Of a DNA stretch of 64,000 bases, positions 8,176-40,575 are shown in pieces; within the stretch, counting starts at the first letter, position 1; every line of letters begins with the position of its first letter. The notes under the pieces were generated by a model that ran no database searches, was not told the DNA's origin, and saw only the letters and a program-made list of their open reading frames with translations. Source of the stretch: Kyrpidia tusciae DSM 2912 (GTDB lineage Bacteria > Bacillota > Bacilli > Kyrpidiales > Kyrpidiaceae); contig NC_014098.1 of NCBI RefSeq assembly GCF_000092905.1, forward strand, positions 558,001 to 622,000, in the 5' to 3' direction. A program made the translations under genes and the position numbers.

Positions 8176-11181
<3,006 letters not shown>

Positions 11182-28545: not shown

Positions 28546-29721
28546 TTATGTATAAAACGGCGTTCCCATCAAAGCTCTGCGGAGAGTGATGCGGTTCCGG
28601 TTTTCGATTTCCACCCGGCGGGGGATGGGGGGAAAAGCGCCTGGGGCATCAATAAAGCGGTCCGGCAGGAGATCTGGAGAATAAGGGCTCCATCGCTCCA
28701 GCCACCGGTCGGGAATTACTTCTGGAATGGGTTGATGGGAGAGTTCCGCCCAGAGCAACGTCCAAGCCCGGGGTACGACTCGCCAAATTTCATATCCTCC
28801 CCCACCCACTGCCACCCAGCGCCCATTGCATGCCTCGTGGGCGAGTTGGTGGACCAATTTCGGAATCTCTCGATAGAGACGGGTGGTGGCCGAAAGGTGG
28901 GTCAAGGGGTCGAGGTGATGTCCATCGCAGCCGTTCTGACTGATGATAATATCGGGCTCAAACCGACTGATCAGAATCGGAAGAGCTTGGTGAAGCAGTT
29001 CGAGCCAGGAGTCATCCTCGGTGAAGGGCTCCAAGGGTACGTTGACCGAATAGCCGTATCCGGCTCCGGTACCCCGTTCATGAATATCTCCAGTTCCTGG
29101 ATAAAGATATTTTCCTGTCTCGTGAAAAGAGATGGTGAGAACGCCCGGGTCGTCATAAAACAGCCACTGCACCCCGTCTCCGTGATGAGCATCCGTGTCG
29201 ATATAAGCCACCCGGGCATCGAATTCCTTTCTTAGCCATGCGATGGCCACGCCGATGTCATTGTACACACAAAACCCGGATGCCATATGGCGCTGGGCGT
29301 GGTGAAGGCCGCCAGCCAGACTGAAGACGTGCTCAGCCTTTCCTTCCATCACCAGTCGGGCTGCCATGAGCGTCCCCCCGGCGATCAAAGAGGATGCTTC
29401 GTGCATATCTGGAAAAATCGGGGTATCCTCGGTACCCAGGCCGAAGGATTCCCAGGACGGTTCCCCCCCACCGGGGGGCACGGGCGGTTCGTCACCCTGT
29501 CCCGCTCGTTTCACGGCCTCGATGTAATGCCGATCGTGAACCAAAGCCAGTTCTTCCTCAGTGGCCGACTGAGGGGCTCGAACGTGTTCCGGGCGCAGGA
29601 GTCCCGATTCCTGCATGAGATCCCAGGTCATGCGCAGGCGCAGGGGATCGAAGGGATGCTCGGGGCCGAATCGATAGCGGAGGACTTCCGGACTGTAGAC
29701 GATGACGGCGCGGTCTTTCAT
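28546..29721 (-). CDS. acuC: Acetoin utilisation/protein deacetylase AcuC
   Basis: Class I/II histone-deacetylase-like, zinc-dependent enzyme; in Bacillus AcuC removes the acetyl group placed on acetyl-CoA synthetase by AcuA. The 391 residues contain the zinc and active-site motifs GGLHHAQ, DTDAHHGDGVQ, FHETGKYLYPGTG and a C-terminal IISQNGCDGHHLDPL region. Its start overlaps the acuB stop (28546-29721 versus 29718-30362), so translation is coupled. No lysine deacetylase of another type is in the window. Confidence 0.92.
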   Translation of the reverse strand: MKDRAVIVYSPEVLRYRFGPEHPFDPLRLRMTWDLMQESGLLRPEHVRAPQSATEEELALVHDRHYIEAVKRAGQGDEPPVPPGGGEPSWESFGLGTEDTPIFPDMHEASSLIAGGTLMAARLVMEGKAEHVFSLAGGLHHAQRHMASGFCVYNDIGVAIAWLRKEFDARVAYIDTDAHHGDGVQWLFYDDPGVLTISFHETGKYLYPGTGDIHERGTGAGYGYSVNVPLEPFTEDDSWLELLHQALPILISRFEPDIIISQNGCDGHHLDPLTHLSATTRLYREIPKLVHQLAHEACNGRWVAVGGGGYEIWRVVPRAWTLLWAELSHQPIPEVIPDRWLERWSPYSPDLLPDRFIDAPGAFPPIPRRVEIENRNRITLRRALMGTPFYT

Positions 29722-30362
29722 TCTCCCCGGCCCCCGTCTGAAAAAGGTCCCAGCACCCGATATCCCGCGGCTTTGATGTCGTCGATGATGCGCCGGGGAT
29801 CCATCGTTTGTACCCGGAGCACGAGATAGCGGGTATCGGGAGTTTTCCCGGGAAATATCAAGACCGAGGAGGCATTGATCCGCCTGGCCCGAAGAACGTC
29901 GGCCACATCGGCGAGACCGCCCGGGCGATTGGGCAGTTCCACCTCAATGCGGCTAGAGGGTTCCAACACGCCCATCATGCCGAGCAGGGTGTGCAAAATG
30001 TCCCTTTCCGTAAGAATGCCCACGACGCGGTTTTGATCGAGAACCGGAAGGCAGCTCACTTTGCGACGATACATTTCGGCGGCGGCGTCTTCGATAAAAT
30101 TCCAGGGCTCTACGGTGACAACGTCTCGCTTCATACATGCTTCAATGCGAAGGCCCCGAACTTTGACTTCCCAGTCCGGGTCGAGAATGGAAGGGCAAAC
30201 GTCCCGCATGTCCCGGTCGGACACAATGCCGACGAGTCGCTCGTTTTCTACAACCGGAAGGTGGCGAATGCGCCGAAGTCGGGTGAGTTGCAAGGCATCG
30301 GTGAGGGCCGTTTCGGGAGTCACCGTCACGACGTTCCGGGTCATGATCTGCTCGACAAGCAT
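29718..30362 (-). CDS. acuB: AcuB-like CBS/ACT domain protein
   Basis: 214-residue protein with two CBS domains (residues about 1-65 and 75-135: MLVEQIMTRNVVTVTPETALTDA, then CMKRDVVTVEPWNF and CLPVLDQNRVVGILTERDIL) and a C-terminal ACT domain (IEVELPNRPGGLADVADVLRARRINASSV). This matches Bacillus AcuB, the middle gene of acuABC, whose exact function is unknown; the domains suggest binding of adenine nucleotides and a small ligand. Only 13 bases separate it from acuA. Confidence 0.92.
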   Translation of the reverse strand: MLVEQIMTRNVVTVTPETALTDALQLTRLRRIRHLPVVENERLVGIVSDRDMRDVCPSILDPDWEVKVRGLRIEACMKRDVVTVEPWNFIEDAAAEMYRRKVSCLPVLDQNRVVGILTERDILHTLLGMMGVLEPSSRIEVELPNRPGGLADVADVLRARRINASSVLIFPGKTPDTRYLVLRVQTMDPRRIIDDIKAAGYRVLGPFSDGGRGE

Positions 30363-30375
30363 CGAACATCTCTCC

Positions 30376-31044
30376 TTAATGGGGTGGCAAGGTAAAGCGC
30401 AGGCGGTGAAATCTTTCTACCGACTCTGGGGGCACCCGATTCCCGATCCGCGCCATGAGCATATTGGCGGGATGGGCCGCAATTTCTGGGTCATCAGTGG
30501 GGTAGACCTCCATGCCGGCGCTCCCCATGACTTTTTTCATCACGTCTCGATACTCCCAGATGTCTAAACCGGTTCCTTCTAAATCCCAATGCCAGTAGTA
30601 TTCGGTGGAAATAACGATGTAGTTTTCCATAGCCGGATCCCGGAAGGCCACCTCAAGGAGGGCTTTGGCCAATCCGGAGTGGCGATAAGGAGCGGCGACT
30701 TCCACGGCGCCCAACTCCAACAAATCGTCCATATTCCCCTCTGCCCATCGTTCCAAAGGATCCGGGTAAAGAAAGGTGACATAGCCCACGACGAGTTGGG
30801 ATCGGCGGGCCGTGATGATCCGGCCTTCGGGCAGTTCGGCAATCCGAATCAAAGCCTGTTGCTGGCGATCCGCCGGGCGAAAAGCTTTGAGCCCTTGGTG
30901 AAATACTAAGGAGCGAAGCGTCGGCGCCTGCACTGGACCTTCGACGATGAGAACGCCGTCTTCTCCGGAGATCACTTTGCTGTGATATTGCTTCGATTGA
31001 TGAGGATCAACCGCACTGCCGGTGCGGTTCTGGGACTCGGCCAT
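30376..31044 (-). CDS. acuA: Protein acetyltransferase AcuA (GNAT)
   Basis: GNAT-family enzyme that acetylates the active-site lysine of acetyl-CoA synthetase and switches it off. The 222 residues include the acetyl-CoA-binding region VEVAAPYRHSGLAKALLEVAF and family-specific segments YYWHWDLEGTGLDIWEYRDVM and NMLMARIGNRV. The ATG at 31044 follows SD GGAGGT with a 6-base gap; two earlier in-frame ATGs (31080, 31116) lack an SD. It is divergent from its target gene acsA, exactly as in Bacillus. Confidence 0.92.
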   Translation of the reverse strand: MAESQNRTGSAVDPHQSKQYHSKVISGEDGVLIVEGPVQAPTLRSLVFHQGLKAFRPADRQQQALIRIAELPEGRIITARRSQLVVGYVTFLYPDPLERWAEGNMDDLLELGAVEVAAPYRHSGLAKALLEVAFRDPAMENYIVISTEYYWHWDLEGTGLDIWEYRDVMKKVMGSAGMEVYPTDDPEIAAHPANMLMARIGNRVPPESVERFHRLRFTLPPH

Positions 31045-31078
31045 CGAGGGACCTCCATCGTCGTCGGACTTTGCCGCC

Positions 31079-31107
31079 ATTATACTTGAACCGCTGAAAG
31101 AGCTAAA
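31079..31107 (-). promoter_or_regulatory. Candidate promoter of acuABC
   Basis: On the minus strand a perfect TATAAT (complement at 31079-31084) is preceded, 17 bases upstream, by the weak -35 TTTAGC. No clear CcpA-type cre operator was found in the acuA-acsA gap. Confidence 0.5.
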
Positions 31108-31162
31108 GAGGGCCAAAAGAAGGAACCAAAAACATTCTATGAAAAGACGACAATGTTTCGAG

Positions 31163-32994: not shown

Positions 32995-33044
32995 AAAAAG
33001 ACGCAGAGTGCCGGGATCCATGCCCGACTCTCTGCGTCTTTTCT
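32995..33044. terminator. Terminator after acsA
   Basis: GACGCAGAGTGCCGGG pairs with CCCGACTCTCTGCGTC over a short loop; AAAA precedes and TTTT follows, so it can act in both directions (acsA on plus, the small gene at 33091 on minus). Confidence 0.85.
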
Positions 33045-33487: not shown

Positions 33488-34888
33488 ATGGTGAACTCGG
33501 TGGCTGTCAAGGACCTGTATGATTCGTATATCAATCCCGGCCTGGCGAAGTTGTACCACTTAATGGGGTTGTCCGCCGGGGAGCTGCGAGGGGAAGGAAG
33601 TGTCGTTTATGACGAGGACGGGAAGCGCTATATCGACTGCGTATCTGGATATGGATCGCTGCCCTTCGGACACTGTCCGCGCCCAGTGCTGGAGGCGGTG
33701 CGCCGGCAGATGGACCGGATGGCCCTCTCGTCGAAAGTGATGCCCGGCCGTCCTGCGGGAGAGCTGGCCGAGGCCCTGGCTGGGTGGACTCCGGGGGATT
33801 TGCAGTACAGCTTTTTTTGCAACAGTGGCGCGGAGGCGGTGGAAGGGGCTCTAAAATTGGCCAGGGCAGTGACGGGGCGCCCGGGGTTTGTCGCGGCGGA
33901 AGGGGGGTTTCATGGGAAAACTTTTGGGGCGCTTTCGGTGTCCGGCCGACAGCGGTATCGAGCCCCCTTTCATCCTTTGCTTCCCGGTGTGACGTTGGTG
34001 CCGTTCGGGGATGTGGAGGCGCTAAAAAGGGCGGTGTCCCAGCAGACGGCCGCGGTGATCCTCGAGCCGATTCAAGGGGAGGGCGGGGTTCATCCGGCGC
34101 CCCGGGGCTATCTGACGGCCGCCAGGGAGATCTGCGACCGCGCCGGGGCGCTGTTGATCCTGGATGAGGTGCAGACGGGTTTTGGGAGGACGGGGATGCC
34201 GTTCGCGGCGCAACGGGAGGGCGTGGTACCCGACGTGATGTGTCTGGCCAAGGCCCTCGGGGGTGGGGTGATGCCCATCGGCTGTTTCATTGCCCGGCCG
34301 GAGGCGGCCCGGGCTTTCTGGGAAGATCCTTTGATTCATACTTCCACCTTTGGGGGGAATCCCCTGGCAGCCGCGGCGGGACTTGCGACCCTGGATTGGC
34401 TGCAACGGGAGGATCTGCCCAGGGCGGCGGCAGAGACGGGACGATGGCTGAAAGGCGAGTTTGAGGAGATGGCCAAACGGTATCCGGGCTGGATCCGGGA
34501 GGTGCGCGGAGAAGGACTCTTGCTCGGCGTTGAATTTGTCGATGAGGCCCGGGGAGGACTCGTCATGAGCGGGTTGGTGGAGAAGGGTGTTCTCACGGCG
34601 TTTACCTTGAATGAGTACCGGGTGGTTCGGGTGGAGCCATCGTTGACGATTGATCGCGGCTTGTTGATCCAGGTGCTGGAAGCGTGGGATGCGGTGCTCG
34701 GCTATTGGTACGGGCAGCTAGGCCCAGGGGAACTTGAAGGGACGGGGTGGGAACCCGATCGGCAGGTCCTTGGCCCGGACTCGACAAGGGGAGGCGAATC
34801 AAGAGAGACGGCTCGAAACGCGGGGAAGGAGGGGGATGGAAATGCCGGTGGTTCAGGTGAGGGAGTCGTTCGCAGGGCCTTGGCATGA
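33488..34888 (+). CDS. Class-III PLP aminotransferase
   Basis: Fold-type I aminotransferase of the ornithine/acetylornithine/putrescine group (subgroup III), moving amino groups between amines or omega-amino acids and oxo acids or aldehydes. The 466 residues have [65 protein letters not shown] and the PLP lysine K255 in [13 protein letters not shown]. The last ~50 residues are a low-complexity Gly/Arg/Glu tail that overlaps the next gene by 47 bases. SD GGAGGT lies 7 bases before ATG 33488. The neighbour encoding an acyl-ACP reductase homologue suggests an aldehyde as substrate, which is inference. Confidence 0.88.
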
Positions 34889-35324
34889 GGTTTTTGACTG
34901 GGTGGCGAATTTTGAGCGATACCCCGAATTTGTCCCGGATTTGACCAAAGTGGTGATCTTGGAACGGGGTGAAGATTGGACCATCAGTCGATGGGAGGCG
35001 AAGATCGGAGGGACTCCCCTTGGGTGGACGGAGCGGGATGTGTGGGTGAGGGAGAAAGAGGGCGGACGCATCGTTTTTGAACAATTGGAAGGGGATTTGA
35101 AACGCTTTTCCGGCCACTGGAAAGTGGCTTCTGAGGGCCTAGGATCGATGGCCGAGTTTCGGTGCGAATTCGAGATCGGCCTTCCCGGACTCGCGATTAT
35201 GCTTCACCCCGTAGCGGGGCTGAAACTCCGGCAAAGCATGGCAGGGCTGCTTCGGAATCTGAAAATCCGTGTGGAGGCCGCAGAAGATGGAACATCGATT
35301 CGCTTTCTTGATTCACCCCTTTGA
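34842..35324 (+). CDS. START/SRPBCC-fold protein (cyclase/dehydrase-like)
   Basis: 160-residue protein with the SRPBCC helix-grip pattern of the polyketide cyclase/COQ10 group: [37 protein letters not shown] at the N-terminus and SGHWKVASEG plus a C-terminal long helix LKLRQSMAGLLRNLKIRVEA. This fold binds hydrophobic ligands in a deep pocket; members act as cyclases or lipid carriers. It starts inside the aminotransferase gene and ends inside the reductase gene (overlaps of 47 and 38 bases), so the three are coupled. ATG 34842 has SD AAGGAGG at about 9 bases; ATG 34836 is an alternative. Confidence 0.8.
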   Translation: MPVVQVRESFAGPWHEVFDWVANFERYPEFVPDLTKVVILERGEDWTISRWEAKIGGTPLGWTERDVWVREKEGGRIVFEQLEGDLKRFSGHWKVASEGLGSMAEFRCEFEIGLPGLAIMLHPVAGLKLRQSMAGLLRNLKIRVEAAEDGTSIRFLDSPL

Positions 35325-36414
35325 CCGCCGGGACATCGCACGCAAACTTCCTGCCCTGGCCGCTTTGCCCGACCCGACCCTGGACCGGTTACTGCGTCAC
35401 CTGCCGCCACTGGTCGCCGATCGCATCGATGAGGTGACGGGGGCGCAAGGAGTGAAGACGTCGGGGTGGCTGGTGGGCACACCGCTGACCTCCCAGCAAC
35501 TTTTGGAGCTGCCTTGGCCCGTGGTCTACCGGAAACTCCTTGCGGCCGGGAAAAAGGCGGTCCGACTGGGCGCCAAAGTGTTGGGGTTGGGGGCGTTCAC
35601 CGCCGTCGCCGGGGACGCCGGGGTCAGTTTAGCCCGCAGACTGCCCATCGCGGTGACGACCGGGAATTCCTACACCGTGGCCACAGCGTTGGAAGCGGCG
35701 GACGTGGGGGCGCGGTGGATGGGCTGGGATCCGGACCGGGCGGGGTGGGTGGTGCTCGGCGCCACGGGGGCCGTGGGGAGGGTGTCGGTGGAGATCCTTG
35801 CCTCCCGGGGTCGGAAGGTGTTCGCCCATGTGCGGGACGATCGCAAGGCGGGCGAGTTTCTGCAGTATTTTCGCCAACGGGGTTTGGAGGGCAGCATTGA
35901 GATGGATCATGATGTGCGCCGCATCTTATCCCGGGCGCCGCTGGTGATCACCTGTTCCAGCGCGTTGGAAGCGGTGGTTCAGCCCCAGGATCTGCTTCCG
36001 GGTGCGGTGGTTTGCGACGTGGCCCGTCCCAGGGATGTGTCCCGTCAAGTGGCGGATTATCGTCCGGATGTTCTTGTGATCGACGGAGGTTTGGTCAAAG
36101 TGCCGGGCGGCTACCCGGGGACTTTGGACCTGGGTTTGCCGGCGGATACGGTGTACGCGTGCATGGCGGAAACCATGGTCTTGGCCATGGAGGGGCGGCT
36201 GGAACACTTTTCTTTGGGCAGAAACCTCACCGTCGACCGGGTTCGGGAGATCGCTGAACTTGCCAAAAAGCACGGGTTTGAGCTCACCGCTTTTCGAAGT
36301 TTTGAGCGTGCCCTGACCCGGGAGGCGGTGGAGAGAATCCGGCGGGAGGCGGACTTCCGTCGGGGCGAGGCCGCCCCGGCACAGGCGGAAGACATGGGCA
36401 CTTACCTCCGATGA
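35287..36414 (+). CDS. Homologue of cyanobacterial long-chain acyl-ACP reductase
   Basis: 375-residue oxidoreductase with the architecture of cyanobacterial acyl-[ACP] reductase (AAR, 341 aa), which reduces fatty acyl-ACP/CoA to an aldehyde with NADPH. Matching segments: GLGAFTAVAGD (AAR has ALGGFTS), TTGNSYTVAT (TTGNTHTA), Rossmann motif GATGAVG at 158-164 (GATGDIG), and YACMAETMVLAMEG with Cys292, equivalent to the AAR thioester Cys near 294, followed by FSLGRNLTVDRVREIAELAKKHGFE. The aldehyde-deformylating oxygenase partner of cyanobacteria is absent; a class-III aminotransferase is in its place. ATG 35287 gives the natural N-terminus. Automated annotation as a shikimate-dehydrogenase-like protein would be understandable. 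Confidence 0.8.
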   Translation: MEHRFAFLIHPFDRRDIARKLPALAALPDPTLDRLLRHLPPLVADRIDEVTGAQGVKTSGWLVGTPLTSQQLLELPWPVVYRKLLAAGKKAVRLGAKVLGLGAFTAVAGDAGVSLARRLPIAVTTGNSYTVATALEAADVGARWMGWDPDRAGWVVLGATGAVGRVSVEILASRGRKVFAHVRDDRKAGEFLQYFRQRGLEGSIEMDHDVRRILSRAPLVITCSSALEAVVQPQDLLPGAVVCDVARPRDVSRQVADYRPDVLVIDGGLVKVPGGYPGTLDLGLPADTVYACMAETMVLAMEGRLEHFSLGRNLTVDRVREIAELAKKHGFELTAFRSFERALTREAVERIRREADFRRGEAAPAQAEDMGTYLR

Positions 36415-37174: not shown

Positions 37175-37774
37175 TTATACTTTCGATGAGGCTGCAAACC
37201 AGTGCTTGAGGAACAAACGCATGACCCGAATACCCTTTTGCATCTCCGGCTCTTTCAGCATTCCCAAAAGACCCATGGCGCCGATTCGGGCCGCCGGAGT
37301 TCGGGCGTCTTCTTCCAAGGCAAGGTTCAGGGAGGTTTCCACTCGGTCGATCGTTTCCACTCCCCGGAGCATCTTTTGCGTGATCAACTCCAAAGTTGGT
37401 TCGGTCATGGCGTCGGTGAGAATTCCCGCCGTTTCTGCCAAGTCGAGCAGTTTGTTGAGAGAACCGTTTTTTTCCATCTGCACGACGCGGTCCAGCACCC
37501 TCCCCAAGGATTCCGAGGCCGCCAGGAGTTTGTCCAGCAATCCCGGGAGGCGGGGATCGGATAGGACGTCGAGTAACACTGACGCCTTTTCGACCTTCTC
37601 GGTCATGTGATCGATGGTTTCATCGGTCATTGCGTCCGCCGCCATATGGGCCAGGGTTAACGCCGTGTCCAGGGTGCCCAGTTTGGCCAACAGCCCTTCG
37701 AGGGCTGCCACGCGGTCTTCGGTCAGTTGGAGTTCGGCCAGGGAGCGGGTCGGCTGATCCAGTTGCGCTTCCAC
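37175..37774 (-). CDS. DUF1641 domain protein
   Basis: 199-residue helical protein with the DUF1641 signature region (AGILTDAMTEPTLELI, GVETIDRVETSLNLALEE, GMLKEPEMQKGIRVMRLFLKHW). DUF1641 proteins are often encoded next to sulfide:quinone oxidoreductases or formate dehydrogenases and probably serve as accessory or membrane-attachment subunits; no biochemical role is established. GTG 37774 follows SD AAGGAGG by 8 bases; a TTG at 37822 would overlap the upstream gene. It follows the SQR-like gene by 20 bases and closes the operon. Confidence 0.85.
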   Translation of the reverse strand: MEAQLDQPTRSLAELQLTEDRVAALEGLLAKLGTLDTALTLAHMAADAMTDETIDHMTEKVEKASVLLDVLSDPRLPGLLDKLLAASESLGRVLDRVVQMEKNGSLNKLLDLAETAGILTDAMTEPTLELITQKMLRGVETIDRVETSLNLALEEDARTPAARIGAMGLLGMLKEPEMQKGIRVMRLFLKHWFAASSKV

Positions 37775-37794
37775 CTGTGCTTCCTCCTTCCGCC

Positions 37795-38934
37795 TCACAT
37801 AATCCCCTGCAAGTTGACCCAATGCATATTATTGTACGACAACTTCGCCCAATGAACAGGTTTCGACGGCGTGACGGGGTTGGGCGGGTTGGCATAATCA
37901 AAGGCGATATAGGTGGCCTTATCCAGGCCGGTTTCGATAAAGCAGAACACTTTACCGTGATACAGCCGCTCGCCGGGTCCGCCCCGGATCCGGTCCACCA
38001 GATTGGCGGCCAGAATCTCCGATTCGAAATGGGCCACAGACCCTGCTTTCGAAATGGGCAAGTTGGTGGCGTCACCGATGACGAAAATGTCCGTCTGATC
38101 CGCCAGATTCAGACGGTTGCGGTCGGTGGGCATCCAGCCTTCCTCGTCGGAGAACCCGCTCTTCTGGGAGAAGGTCGACCCTTTATGAGGCGGGATGACA
38201 ACCAACAGGTCGAACGGGATGCGCCGTCCGTCGATGGAGACGAGTTCCTTTTTCTTCGTGTCCACTTCCTCCATCAGGAAGAAGGTCTCGATATGCACGC
38301 CTCGGGATTCAAACTCCCGCTGGGCCATGTTCGCCACCGACTCGGTGCCATAGGGTCGGGCGAGGGGATAACAGTAGGTAATGTCCGTTTTGTCCCGGAT
38401 TCCTTTTTTGCGGGCCCAGTCTTCGAACATCATCGTGAACTCCAGGGGTGCCACCGGGCACTTGTGCGGAAGTCCGACTGCAATGACCACTTTCCCGCCC
38501 TGGAAGGTGTCCATGGCCTGTTGAAGCTTCAGCGCCCCGTCCACCGTATAGAAAATGTGCCCCGCCTCCAGCAACCCTGGAATCTGGTCGGGCTCAGGAT
38601 GAGACCCGGTGGCGATGACGGCGTAATCATAGGGAAAGCGCTGTCCACCGTCGGTGGTGACCACTTTGCGCTCCGCGTCGATGTGCACCGCCTCGCCAAA
38701 AATCAGCCTCACCGAGGGATGCAAGACCTCTTTGACTTTACGCATGAGTTCTTCCGGCTTTTTTAAACGGAACGGAATATACAGCAGTCCCGGTTGATAC
38801 AGGTGCTCTTCTTTGTTGCTGATGACCGTGACCCGGAGTTCTCCGCCGGCAATCTCCGGGGCCGCATCCCGGGCTAAGCGGTTGGCGAGCATCGTTCCCG
38901 CAGTGCCACCGCCCACGATAACAACCTCTTTCAT
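37795..38934 (-). CDS. Sulfide:quinone oxidoreductase-like flavoprotein
   Basis: FAD-dependent disulfide-type oxidoreductase that would transfer electrons from sulfide to the quinone pool. The 379 residues have the N-terminal dinucleotide motif VVIVGGGTAGTMLANRL, YDYAVIATGSHPEPDQIPG, the Cys in LPHKCPVAPLEF, GDATNLPISKAGSVAHFE and a second Cys in KVFCFIETG; the two Cys correspond to the redox pair expected in SQR. SD GGAGGTG lies 6 bases before ATG 38934. tusA lies upstream and DUF1641 downstream in the same operon. Other NADH-dehydrogenase-like roles are possible but the neighbours favour SQR. Confidence 0.88.
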   Translation of the reverse strand: MKEVVIVGGGTAGTMLANRLARDAAPEIAGGELRVTVISNKEEHLYQPGLLYIPFRLKKPEELMRKVKEVLHPSVRLIFGEAVHIDAERKVVTTDGGQRFPYDYAVIATGSHPEPDQIPGLLEAGHIFYTVDGALKLQQAMDTFQGGKVVIAVGLPHKCPVAPLEFTMMFEDWARKKGIRDKTDITYCYPLARPYGTESVANMAQREFESRGVHIETFFLMEEVDTKKKELVSIDGRRIPFDLLVVIPPHKGSTFSQKSGFSDEEGWMPTDRNRLNLADQTDIFVIGDATNLPISKAGSVAHFESEILAANLVDRIRGGPGERLYHGKVFCFIETGLDKATYIAFDYANPPNPVTPSKPVHWAKLSYNNMHWVNLQGIM

Positions 38935-39000
38935 CCTGTGCACCTCCTGCGTCCTATGGACTTCAAGCCTTTCCCAGTCCGTGCACCCTGGCGGCGCCTT

Positions 39001-39243
39001 CTATTTCATCTGGACTCGAATGCGCCAGTAAGTGCCCGTCGGATCGTTCACCTCTTCACTTCCCAAAAATGTGTGCCCCATCTTTTCTGCCCACTGCGGT
39101 ACGTCTTTGAGGGATCCCTTGTCATTGCTCCACAACTCCACCACTTCACCGGAGGTGGTGTGTTTCGATTTCTTGATTAACTCCATCAACGGTCCCGGAC
39201 AAAACGCCCCTCGGGCATCGATCACAACTGCTTGCTGCGCCAT
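39001..39243 (-). CDS. tusA: TusA-family sulfurtransferase
   Basis: Small (80 aa) sulfur-carrier protein whose Cys in the CPGP motif (DARGAFCPGPLMELIKK, Cys15) carries a persulfide. The rest of the fold, including GEVVELWSNDKGSLKDVPQWAEKMGHTFLG, fits TusA/YeeD-type proteins. The SD GGAGGC is upstream of ATG 39243. It is the first gene of the tusA-SQR-DUF1641 operon and would take sulfane sulfur generated by the flavoprotein. It is distinct from the tRNA thiouridine TusA of enteric bacteria in context. Confidence 0.9.
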   Translation of the reverse strand: MAQQAVVIDARGAFCPGPLMELIKKSKHTTSGEVVELWSNDKGSLKDVPQWAEKMGHTFLGSEEVNDPTGTYWRIRVQMK

Positions 39244-39285
39244 CCTTCAGCCTCCCGTTCACAAAAATGTAACGCGTGTGTCTTT

Positions 39286-39291
39286 ATCGTA
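39286..39291 (-). promoter_or_regulatory. Candidate -10 box of the tusA operon
   Basis: TACGAT on the minus strand. If it is used, transcription would begin near 39279 and the palindrome centred at 39322 would sit at about -43, an activator position. No good -35 box is present, as expected for an activated promoter. Confidence 0.4.
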
Positions 39292-39315
39292 TCGAAAAAG
39301 AAACGAAGCGATAAT

Positions 39316-39328
39316 AGGGGAATCCCCT
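39316..39328. promoter_or_regulatory. Palindromic operator 1 (AGGGGAATCCCCT)
   Basis: Perfect 13-base palindrome with core AGGGG-AAT-CCCCT, in context TAGGGGAATCCCCTCA. It matches the palindrome at 39363 in form and resembles the GC-flanked sites of NarL/NreC-type regulators, one of which is encoded nearby. Confidence 0.6.
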
Positions 39329-39362
39329 CATTTCACCGAAAGGACAAAAGGCAGACACAATT

Positions 39363-39375
39363 AGGGAAATTCCCT
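39363..39375. promoter_or_regulatory. Palindromic operator 2 (AGGGAAATTCCCT)
   Basis: Perfect palindrome AGGGA-AAT-TCCCT, 47 bases centre-to-centre from operator 1. It lies about 45 bases before the likely start of the rhodanese gene's transcript, whose -10 box TACACT is at 39402-39407. Confidence 0.6.
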
Positions 39376-39441
39376 GATAGAGAACTTTGACCGGGAGCTG
39401 CTACACTGAAGCCAATCGAAGCTCTCCAGGGAGGGTTGCCC

Positions 39442-40575
39442 ATGGTTTTCTCCATCAGCACCGATGAATTGTATCGACGAATCGAACAGGGAGAACCGAT
39501 ATTTCTCCTGGATGTTCGGAATACTGATGAATATTCAAACTGGAAAATCGAAGGTCCGAATGTACAATCCATCAATGTTCCCTACTTTGACTTCATGGAA
39601 GATGAAGACAAAGCGGTCTCCCAGGTTCCAAAGGACAAGGATCTCGTGGTGATCTGCGCTCATCAAGGATCCTCCGCCTATGTGGCGGACGTCCTCGACC
39701 GCCGGGGATACCGGGCTGTTTACGTGCAGGGAGGCATGGCGGCTTGGGGGAATACCTATCACGTCGTGCCGGTGGTGGAAGAGGCGGATTGGACACTTTT
39801 GCAGATTAATCGGGTTGGCAAAGGCTGTCTGTCCTATTTCATGTTCTCGAAAGGCGAGGCGGTGGTGGTGGAGCCACTGCGCAATGTTAATCTTTACACC
39901 GAGTTGGCAGAGAAATACGGAGTAACGATCCGGCATATTCTGGATTCCCATATGCACGCCGATCACATTTCCACCGGCCCGGAGCTGGCGGCTCGAACCG
40001 GGGCGACGTATTACCTGAACTCTTCCGAAGGCTCGAAGGTCCGTTTTGAGCCCCTCGAGAAATATGAAAAATTGCAATCCGGGAATATCGAAGTGGAGGT
40101 CCTGGTGGTGAAAACGCCGGGGCACACCCCTGGAAGCCTCTCCTTCTTTGTCAACCGGAAATATCTCCTGTCCGGGGACACGATCTTTGTCGGCGGACTC
40201 GGGCGGCCGGATTTGGGCGGCAAGGCCAGGGAATGGGCGGAAGATCTTTATGATACGGTATTCGGCAAGGTGGCGGCGCTTGCCGATGATGTGATCGTCT
40301 TGCCTTCCCATTACGCCAGCTTTGCCGAACTGAACGACAAAGGGGTCGTGGCCGATACCCTCGGCAATATCCGGAGCCGAAACGAAATGATGCATGTGAC
40401 CGACCGCCAGCGTTTCATTGAAATGGTGGTGGAGTCGGACAGCGCCCTGAAACCGCCGAACTATCTGGACGTCCTGGCCATTAACCGGGGGGACTTCCAG
40501 GTTGACGCGGCCCGGGCGGACGAACTGGAGATGGGTCCCAATCGGTGTGCGGCTCATCACGCCGCCGCTTCTTGA
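39442..40575 (+). CDS. Rhodanese / metallo-beta-lactamase fusion (persulfide dioxygenase type)
   Basis: 377-residue fusion. Residues about 1-105 form a rhodanese domain with active-site Cys72 in VVICAHQGSSAYVADVL; residues about 115-350 form a metallo-beta-lactamase domain of the ETHE1/persulfide dioxygenase group, with HxHxDH ligands H170, H172, D174, H175 (DSHMHADHIS), further His in TPGHTPGSLSF, Asp in LLSGDTIFVGGLGRPDL and His in LPSHYASF. It would oxidise persulfides to sulfite and move sulfur to acceptors. The domain order is opposite to CstB. SD GGGAGGG precedes ATG 39442. It is divergent from the tusA operon. Confidence 0.9.
   Translation: MVFSISTDELYRRIEQGEPIFLLDVRNTDEYSNWKIEGPNVQSINVPYFDFMEDEDKAVSQVPKDKDLVVICAHQGSSAYVADVLDRRGYRAVYVQGGMAAWGNTYHVVPVVEEADWTLLQINRVGKGCLSYFMFSKGEAVVVEPLRNVNLYTELAEKYGVTIRHILDSHMHADHISTGPELAARTGATYYLNSSEGSKVRFEPLEKYEKLQSGNIEVEVLVVKTPGHTPGSLSFFVNRKYLLSGDTIFVGGLGRPDLGGKAREWAEDLYDTVFGKVAALADDVIVLPSHYASFAELNDKGVVADTLGNIRSRNEMMHVTDRQRFIEMVVESDSALKPPNYLDVLAINRGDFQVDAARADELEMGPNRCAAHHAAAS

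Follow-up and report, generated by a model that had tools for sequence, protein, structure and literature searches.

Several bacterial enzymes join a thioester reductase of the acyl-ACP reductase (AAR) type to a class-III aminotransferase. TamH, from the tambjamine YP1 pathway of Pseudoalteromonas tunicata, converts a C12 acyl-ACP to the aldehyde and then to dodecylamine using NADH and L-Glu (PMC9594044); it is a fusion with the aminotransferase first, and its partner is a dedicated ACP-adenylation enzyme, TamA. PigE, encoded in the prodigiosin cluster of Serratia, where it serves the MAP pathway, carries the two activities on a single polypeptide with the reductase first, and in cell lysate it took a thioester to a transaminated, cyclised product, which the purified enzyme did not do (PMC8341465). 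The same kind of thioester-to-aldehyde-to-amine reaction has been proposed for KecF (PMC6498172), which, like PP_2782, is fused with the transaminase first and encoded in a PKS/FAS cluster. The Firmicutes have transaminase-AAR fusions in Thermaerobacter and Thermincola, again with the transaminase first; after expression of these proteins, their transaminase activity was measured with linear aldehydes (PMC10829540). A looser parallel, already drawn for PigE (PMC8341465), is the GluTR-GSAM (HemA-HemL) pair, in which a Cys-thioester reductase passes an aldehyde to a separate class-III PLP enzyme. There, unlike in the other systems, the substrate is tRNA-bound glutamate and the second enzyme is an aminomutase instead of a transaminase. 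No SRPBCC partner has been described for PigE or TamH.

The locus compared here with these systems lies in a window of 64,000 nucleotides, the whole stretch of DNA that was analysed, from Kyrpidia tusciae DSM 2912, a thermophile from hot springs. The genome has 3,384,766 bp on one contig (PMC3236038). The module spans 33488-36414 and consists of three genes on the plus strand, encoding a class-III aminotransferase (AT; 33488..34888, 466 aa), an SRPBCC/START-like protein (SR; 34842..35324, 160 aa) and an acyl-thioester-reductase homologue (AAR; 35287..36414, 375 aa). The overlaps of 47 bases between AT and SR and 38 bases between SR and AAR, as given in the original prediction, were exact when the open reading frames were measured again. 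The 47-base overlap falls inside a low-complexity C-terminal tail of AT of about 55 residues (34730-34888), which is present in the Kyrpidia-group AT only and missing from other genera. Both overlaps recur in each of the four Kyrpidia-group genomes examined; in other genera the genes are mostly separated by short gaps, indicating that the overlaps are lineage-specific. Upstream, an intrinsic-terminator hairpin at 32996..33042 (plus strand; 13-bp stem, -28 kcal/mol, z = -4.5, T-run 3′ of the stem) ends the acsA unit and parts it from the module, so AT, SR and AAR form a unit of their own, as had been proposed. AcsA is an ordinary acetate-CoA ligase; its gene lies 5′ of the module in most linked Bacilli loci, but it was rejected as a member given the strong terminator between them. 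Divergent from acsA, at 28546-31116 of the window on the minus strand, are acuC-, acuB- and acuA-like genes (translations inspected), the usual control genes of acetyl-CoA synthetase.

The third protein had been predicted to be a cyanobacterial-type AAR. Residues 29-335 align to SeAAR (6JZQ; E = 4.5e-16, 24.7% identity), giving an alignment over the full length within one fold family; the NADPH-type nucleotide-binding motif GATGAVG occupies residues 158-164 (35758..35778, plus strand), and by alignment Cys292 (codon 36160..36162, plus strand) is the equivalent of the catalytic Cys294 of SeAAR. This Cys is invariant in 75 of 75 aligned sequences, and the motifs TTGNSYT, GATGxxG and DGG are conserved with it; GxxGxxG is found in 74 of the 75, the sole exception being PigE, which has the same Cys within GCMAET. 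Against the cyanobacterial AAR model TIGR04058, however, the protein scores only 74.0 bits (73.6 in the genome search) with a cut-off of 449.7, whereas the PigE model gives 198 bits over its reductase half, at 28.8% identity, and 4PPM (PigE) is matched with E = 6.3e-37. The whole-length homology, Cys292 and GATGxxG of the original prediction thus hold, and among characterised proteins the reductase half of PigE, not the cyanobacterial enzyme, is the nearest relative. The claim that no aldehyde-deformylating oxygenase is present extends to the whole K. tusciae genome, in which PF11266 had no match while the S. elongatus control was found, and alkane biosynthesis was rejected as a role of AAR on that ground. 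A grouping with shikimate/quinate dehydrogenases was also rejected, since PF01488 (Shikimate_DH) reaches 23.7 bits, below its threshold of 24.3, and covers the Rossmann part only (residues 155-258). The HemA model gives only 33 bits. The family (COG5322) is currently annotated as predicted amino acid dehydrogenase.

AT belongs to the class-III aminotransferases, with 345.5 bits (E = 4.4e-103) against PF00202 (Aminotran_3) and the PLP lysine, K255, within LAKALGGG (codon 34250-34252, plus strand). Its top PDB match is the E. coli putrescine aminotransferase YgjG (4UOX, 366 bits), with PigE (4PPM) further down at 293 bits, and a putrescine-aminotransferase model ranks first in the NCBIfam profile search; against the PigE model it scores 401 bits. 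Homologues of both PigE activities, each matching 4PPM, are thus present in the module, although as separate overlapping genes instead of the single polypeptide of PigE, TamH and KecF, and they are separate in all linked Bacilli loci. SR is a member of the SRPBCC/START-like superfamily by profile (PF03364, Polyketide_cyc: 74.2 bits against a cut-off of 23.4, E = 1.4e-20) and by the helix-grip fold of its AlphaFold2 model (pLDDT 90). A Foldseek search with this model returned TTHA0849 as the closest structure (TM 0.81), followed by aromatase/cyclases such as ZhuI and TcmN (TM about 0.75) and human StAR (0.73). The profile of RatA, a Coq10-type protein, is weakly matched by all 38 SR family members scanned, and SR may accordingly be a Coq10/RatA-like protein for a hydrophobic ligand.

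With the SRPBCC profile, 60 named loci were retrieved from 85,000 species genomes; they come from Kyrpidia, Tumebacillus, Sulfobacillus, Orenia, Heliorestis, Sporomusa, Propionispora, Pelosinus, Carboxydocella and others. AT is present in 54 of the 60, nearly always immediately 5′ of SR. The distance between the two genes has a median of 16 nt over the 61 pairs measured and is at most 60 nt in 55 of them, so that across the Firmicutes AT and SR form a tight unit of two genes. AAR adjoins this unit in only five of the 60 loci, all from Bacilli or close kin; within Bacilli the order AT-SR-AAR is maintained in genomes of four families, Tumebacillus included. The three genes are therefore conserved together in relatives of K. 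tusciae, and their linkage is real in Bacilli but a local form, most Firmicutes having the two-gene unit with AAR in another conserved locus. In other Firmicutes, AT-SR is flanked mostly by housekeeping genes. In Sulfobacillus the unit lies near AdoHcy/methylthioadenosine salvage genes and elsewhere near spoIVA/gpsA or ndk, and speD (AdoMet decarboxylase) is found near it in eight of the 60 loci (L094, L095, L111, L114, L119, L131, L132 and L140).

Despite the distance, AAR and the AT-SR unit occur together. A full-length AAR is encoded in 42 of 44 AT-SR genomes tested, mostly at a separate site. Among 398 sampled genomes of the phylum, 237 (about 60%) had AAR and 39 had SR; AAR was present in 37 of the 39 SR-positive and 200 of the 359 SR-negative genomes (Fisher p = 4e-7, without phylogenetic correction, the pattern recurring in many families), and the two SR-positive genomes without AAR have completeness values of 82% and 63%. 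Within Bacilli, strong SR matches (E < 1e-66) fell in exactly the same 13 genomes as the stand-alone AAR; one further genome (G106), outside this matched set, has a weak SRPBCC match only. Since about 200 sampled genomes have AAR without SR, AAR must also serve another purpose. Three genomes of one Bacilli genus (G043, G222 and G374; genus g23) have AT-AAR fusions as open frames of 905-921 aa in the TamH-like order. None has an SRPBCC neighbour beside the fusion (loci L081 and L082 in G043 and G374, and G222), and all three are absent among the SR-positive Bacilli genomes of a 300-genome sample, which may not contain all three. A link to sporulation was considered and is not supported, as one SR-positive genome (G421) has no SpoIVA and many SpoIVA-positive genomes have no AAR.

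Outside the linked Bacilli, AAR is nearly always found in a dusB-c1-c3-AAR locus, often followed by greA-lysS. The c1 product (about 180 aa; 9455-9985 of locus L060) has an HTH-like start, that of c3 (8521-9447 of the same locus) about 300 aa, and neither has a match in Pfam or NCBIfam. c3 lies directly 5′ of AAR in most Clostridia-type genomes, with 66% mean column identity among 14 genomes of the phylum, and it occurs in 23 of 23 AT-SR genomes tested and 4 of 21 AAR-negative genomes. The AlphaFold model of c3 is fairly confident and its Foldseek matches are weak (best TM about 0.5, to the carmabin TAD and SeAAR); the two-domain Rossmann-type matches were too weak for a fold to be assigned, and c3 is probably a two-domain Rossmann-like protein. 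In K. tusciae, the region at about 97-106 kb of the chromosome reads coaX..dusB-c3-greA-lysS, with c3 at G000:C1:102444-103358 and no AAR between c3 and greA. One Tumebacillus and two other Bacilli have the same AAR-less dusB-c3-greA-lysS slot. Because this ancestral slot has been emptied, AAR appears to have moved, in the Kyrpidia/Tumebacillus lineage, from the dusB-c3-AAR-greA-lysS locus to the 3′ end of the AT-SR unit, where it would have become the third gene. The linked AARs form, with the Carboxydocella AAR, one clade inside the Firmicute family (support 0.90). In a genome that shares its genus with some of the linked genomes (G067), AT-SR, AAR and the c3 locus lie at three separate places (L078, L219 and L220). 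Its AAR, next to a LysR regulator, is a distant copy that falls outside the linked clade, so that the original AAR looks to have been replaced. That this genome still has an AAR, although unlinked and distant, is consistent with AT-SR depending on AAR.

Given these results, we consider it probable, at about 60%, that the module is a fatty-amine system of the TamH/PigE/KecF type split into three proteins, with SR carrying the chain. In this scheme Cys292 of AAR would accept the acyl group of acyl-ACP (or acyl-CoA), NAD(P)H would reduce it to the aldehyde, and AT would then transaminate the aldehyde to a primary alkyl amine, the donor probably being an amino acid such as glutamate. Judged from homology and catalytic residues, acyl transfer to Cys292 and hydride reduction followed by transamination is the best-supported route, and it corresponds to the reaction of TamH. 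SR would bind the hydrophobic chain, most likely ferrying the aldehyde (or amine) between AAR and AT; its fold, its strict pairing with AT and the absence of the AT-AAR fusion genomes among the SR-positives all point to such a carrier, a task that in the fusion enzymes proximity of the domains would replace. The occurrence of PigE among the closest characterised relatives of both AAR and AT also counts for a split PigE-type system, while the higher score of AT with YgjG than with PigE, and the lack of a dedicated acyl-activating enzyme or ACP gene within the unit, count against it. It also counts against such a system that the polar lipids listed for K. tusciae (PMC11123200) include neither a fatty amine nor an aminolipid; no polar-lipid report of an aminolipid in Kyrpidia was found.

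The similarity of AT to YgjG and to the putrescine-aminotransferase model is what would be expected if AT were a putrescine/diamine (or omega-amino acid) aminotransferase, with the roles of SRPBCC and AAR unrelated and their joining in Bacilli a neutral operon drift. The speD genes near AT-SR in 8/60 loci keep this explanation alive, and the methylthioadenosine/AdoHcy salvage genes in several loci also favour it. We nevertheless regard it as unlikely: AT lies far under the putrescine aminotransferase equivalog cut-offs (TIGR03372/PRK11522: 378.7 against 658.65 and 433.8 against 612), diamine catabolism is not known to involve a START-like lipid protein of the kind that constantly accompanies AT, and the match of AAR with AT-SR in Bacilli (13 and 13 genomes) and their nesting in the phylum argue against independence.

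The resemblance of SR to ZhuI and TcmN raises a different question, namely whether SR is a cyclase or condensation-type enzyme and the product a cyclic or condensed, alkaloid-like compound, comparable to those of prodiginine and koreenceine biosynthesis, instead of a plain fatty amine. The products of PigE and KecF do cyclise after transamination (PMC8341465, PMC6498172), but the closest fold to SR is the uncharacterised TTHA0849, its family matches the RatA profile, and no polyketide synthase gene is found among the adjoining ORFs. The mostly housekeeping neighbours of AT-SR elsewhere also speak against a cyclase, and the spread of the unit over many families suggests a general product rather than a specialised one; a cyclase is accordingly improbable. 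Least probable of all, in our estimate, is that AAR chiefly makes a fatty aldehyde for another fate, such as an ether lipid or alcohol and perhaps together with c3, with AT-SR clearing the surplus as amine. AAR is indeed far commoner than AT-SR and is tied to c3 and the HTH-like protein in most genomes, but in Kyrpidia and other Bacilli it has moved away from c3 to AT-SR, pointing to the amine branch as its principal use in these genomes.

For the split fatty-amine system, the chemistry that the original prediction put forward, from acyl thioester through aldehyde to primary amine, is plausible but not new: it has been demonstrated for TamH, has support for PigE and is the proposed reaction of KecF. 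Related enzymes are also known in Firmicutes, namely the fusions of Thermaerobacter and Thermincola. What is new is the version with reductase and aminotransferase as separate proteins and an SRPBCC gene between them, widespread and unnoticed in the Firmicutes, together with the AT-SR unit itself, its co-occurrence with AAR at a distance and the dusB locus emptied of AAR in Kyrpidia and Tumebacillus. A literature search for the AT-SR-AAR gene combination and for a candidate name of c3 gave nothing useful. In a broader and more doubtful extension, a large share of the Firmicutes might have an unrecognised fatty-aldehyde system built on the common stand-alone AAR (with c1 and c3), to which a subset would add AT and a lipid carrier, yielding fatty amines for an undescribed class of lipids or metabolites; the SRPBCC protein would then be a soluble fatty-aldehyde carrier of a new kind. 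The split system gives the COG5322 family a testable function and predicts fatty-amine production in many Firmicutes. The relocation of AAR is a natural experiment that ties together two otherwise unconnected gene clusters, and a thermophile's naturally separate reductase, aminotransferase and carrier might be simpler to use and engineer than the fused TamH and PigE.

Beyond the 3′ end of the module, at 37175-40575 of the window, a sulfide-oxidation-like cluster was recognised by eye, comprising DUF1641-like, sulfide-quinone-reductase-like and TusA-like genes and one for a rhodanese/metallo-beta-lactamase protein.
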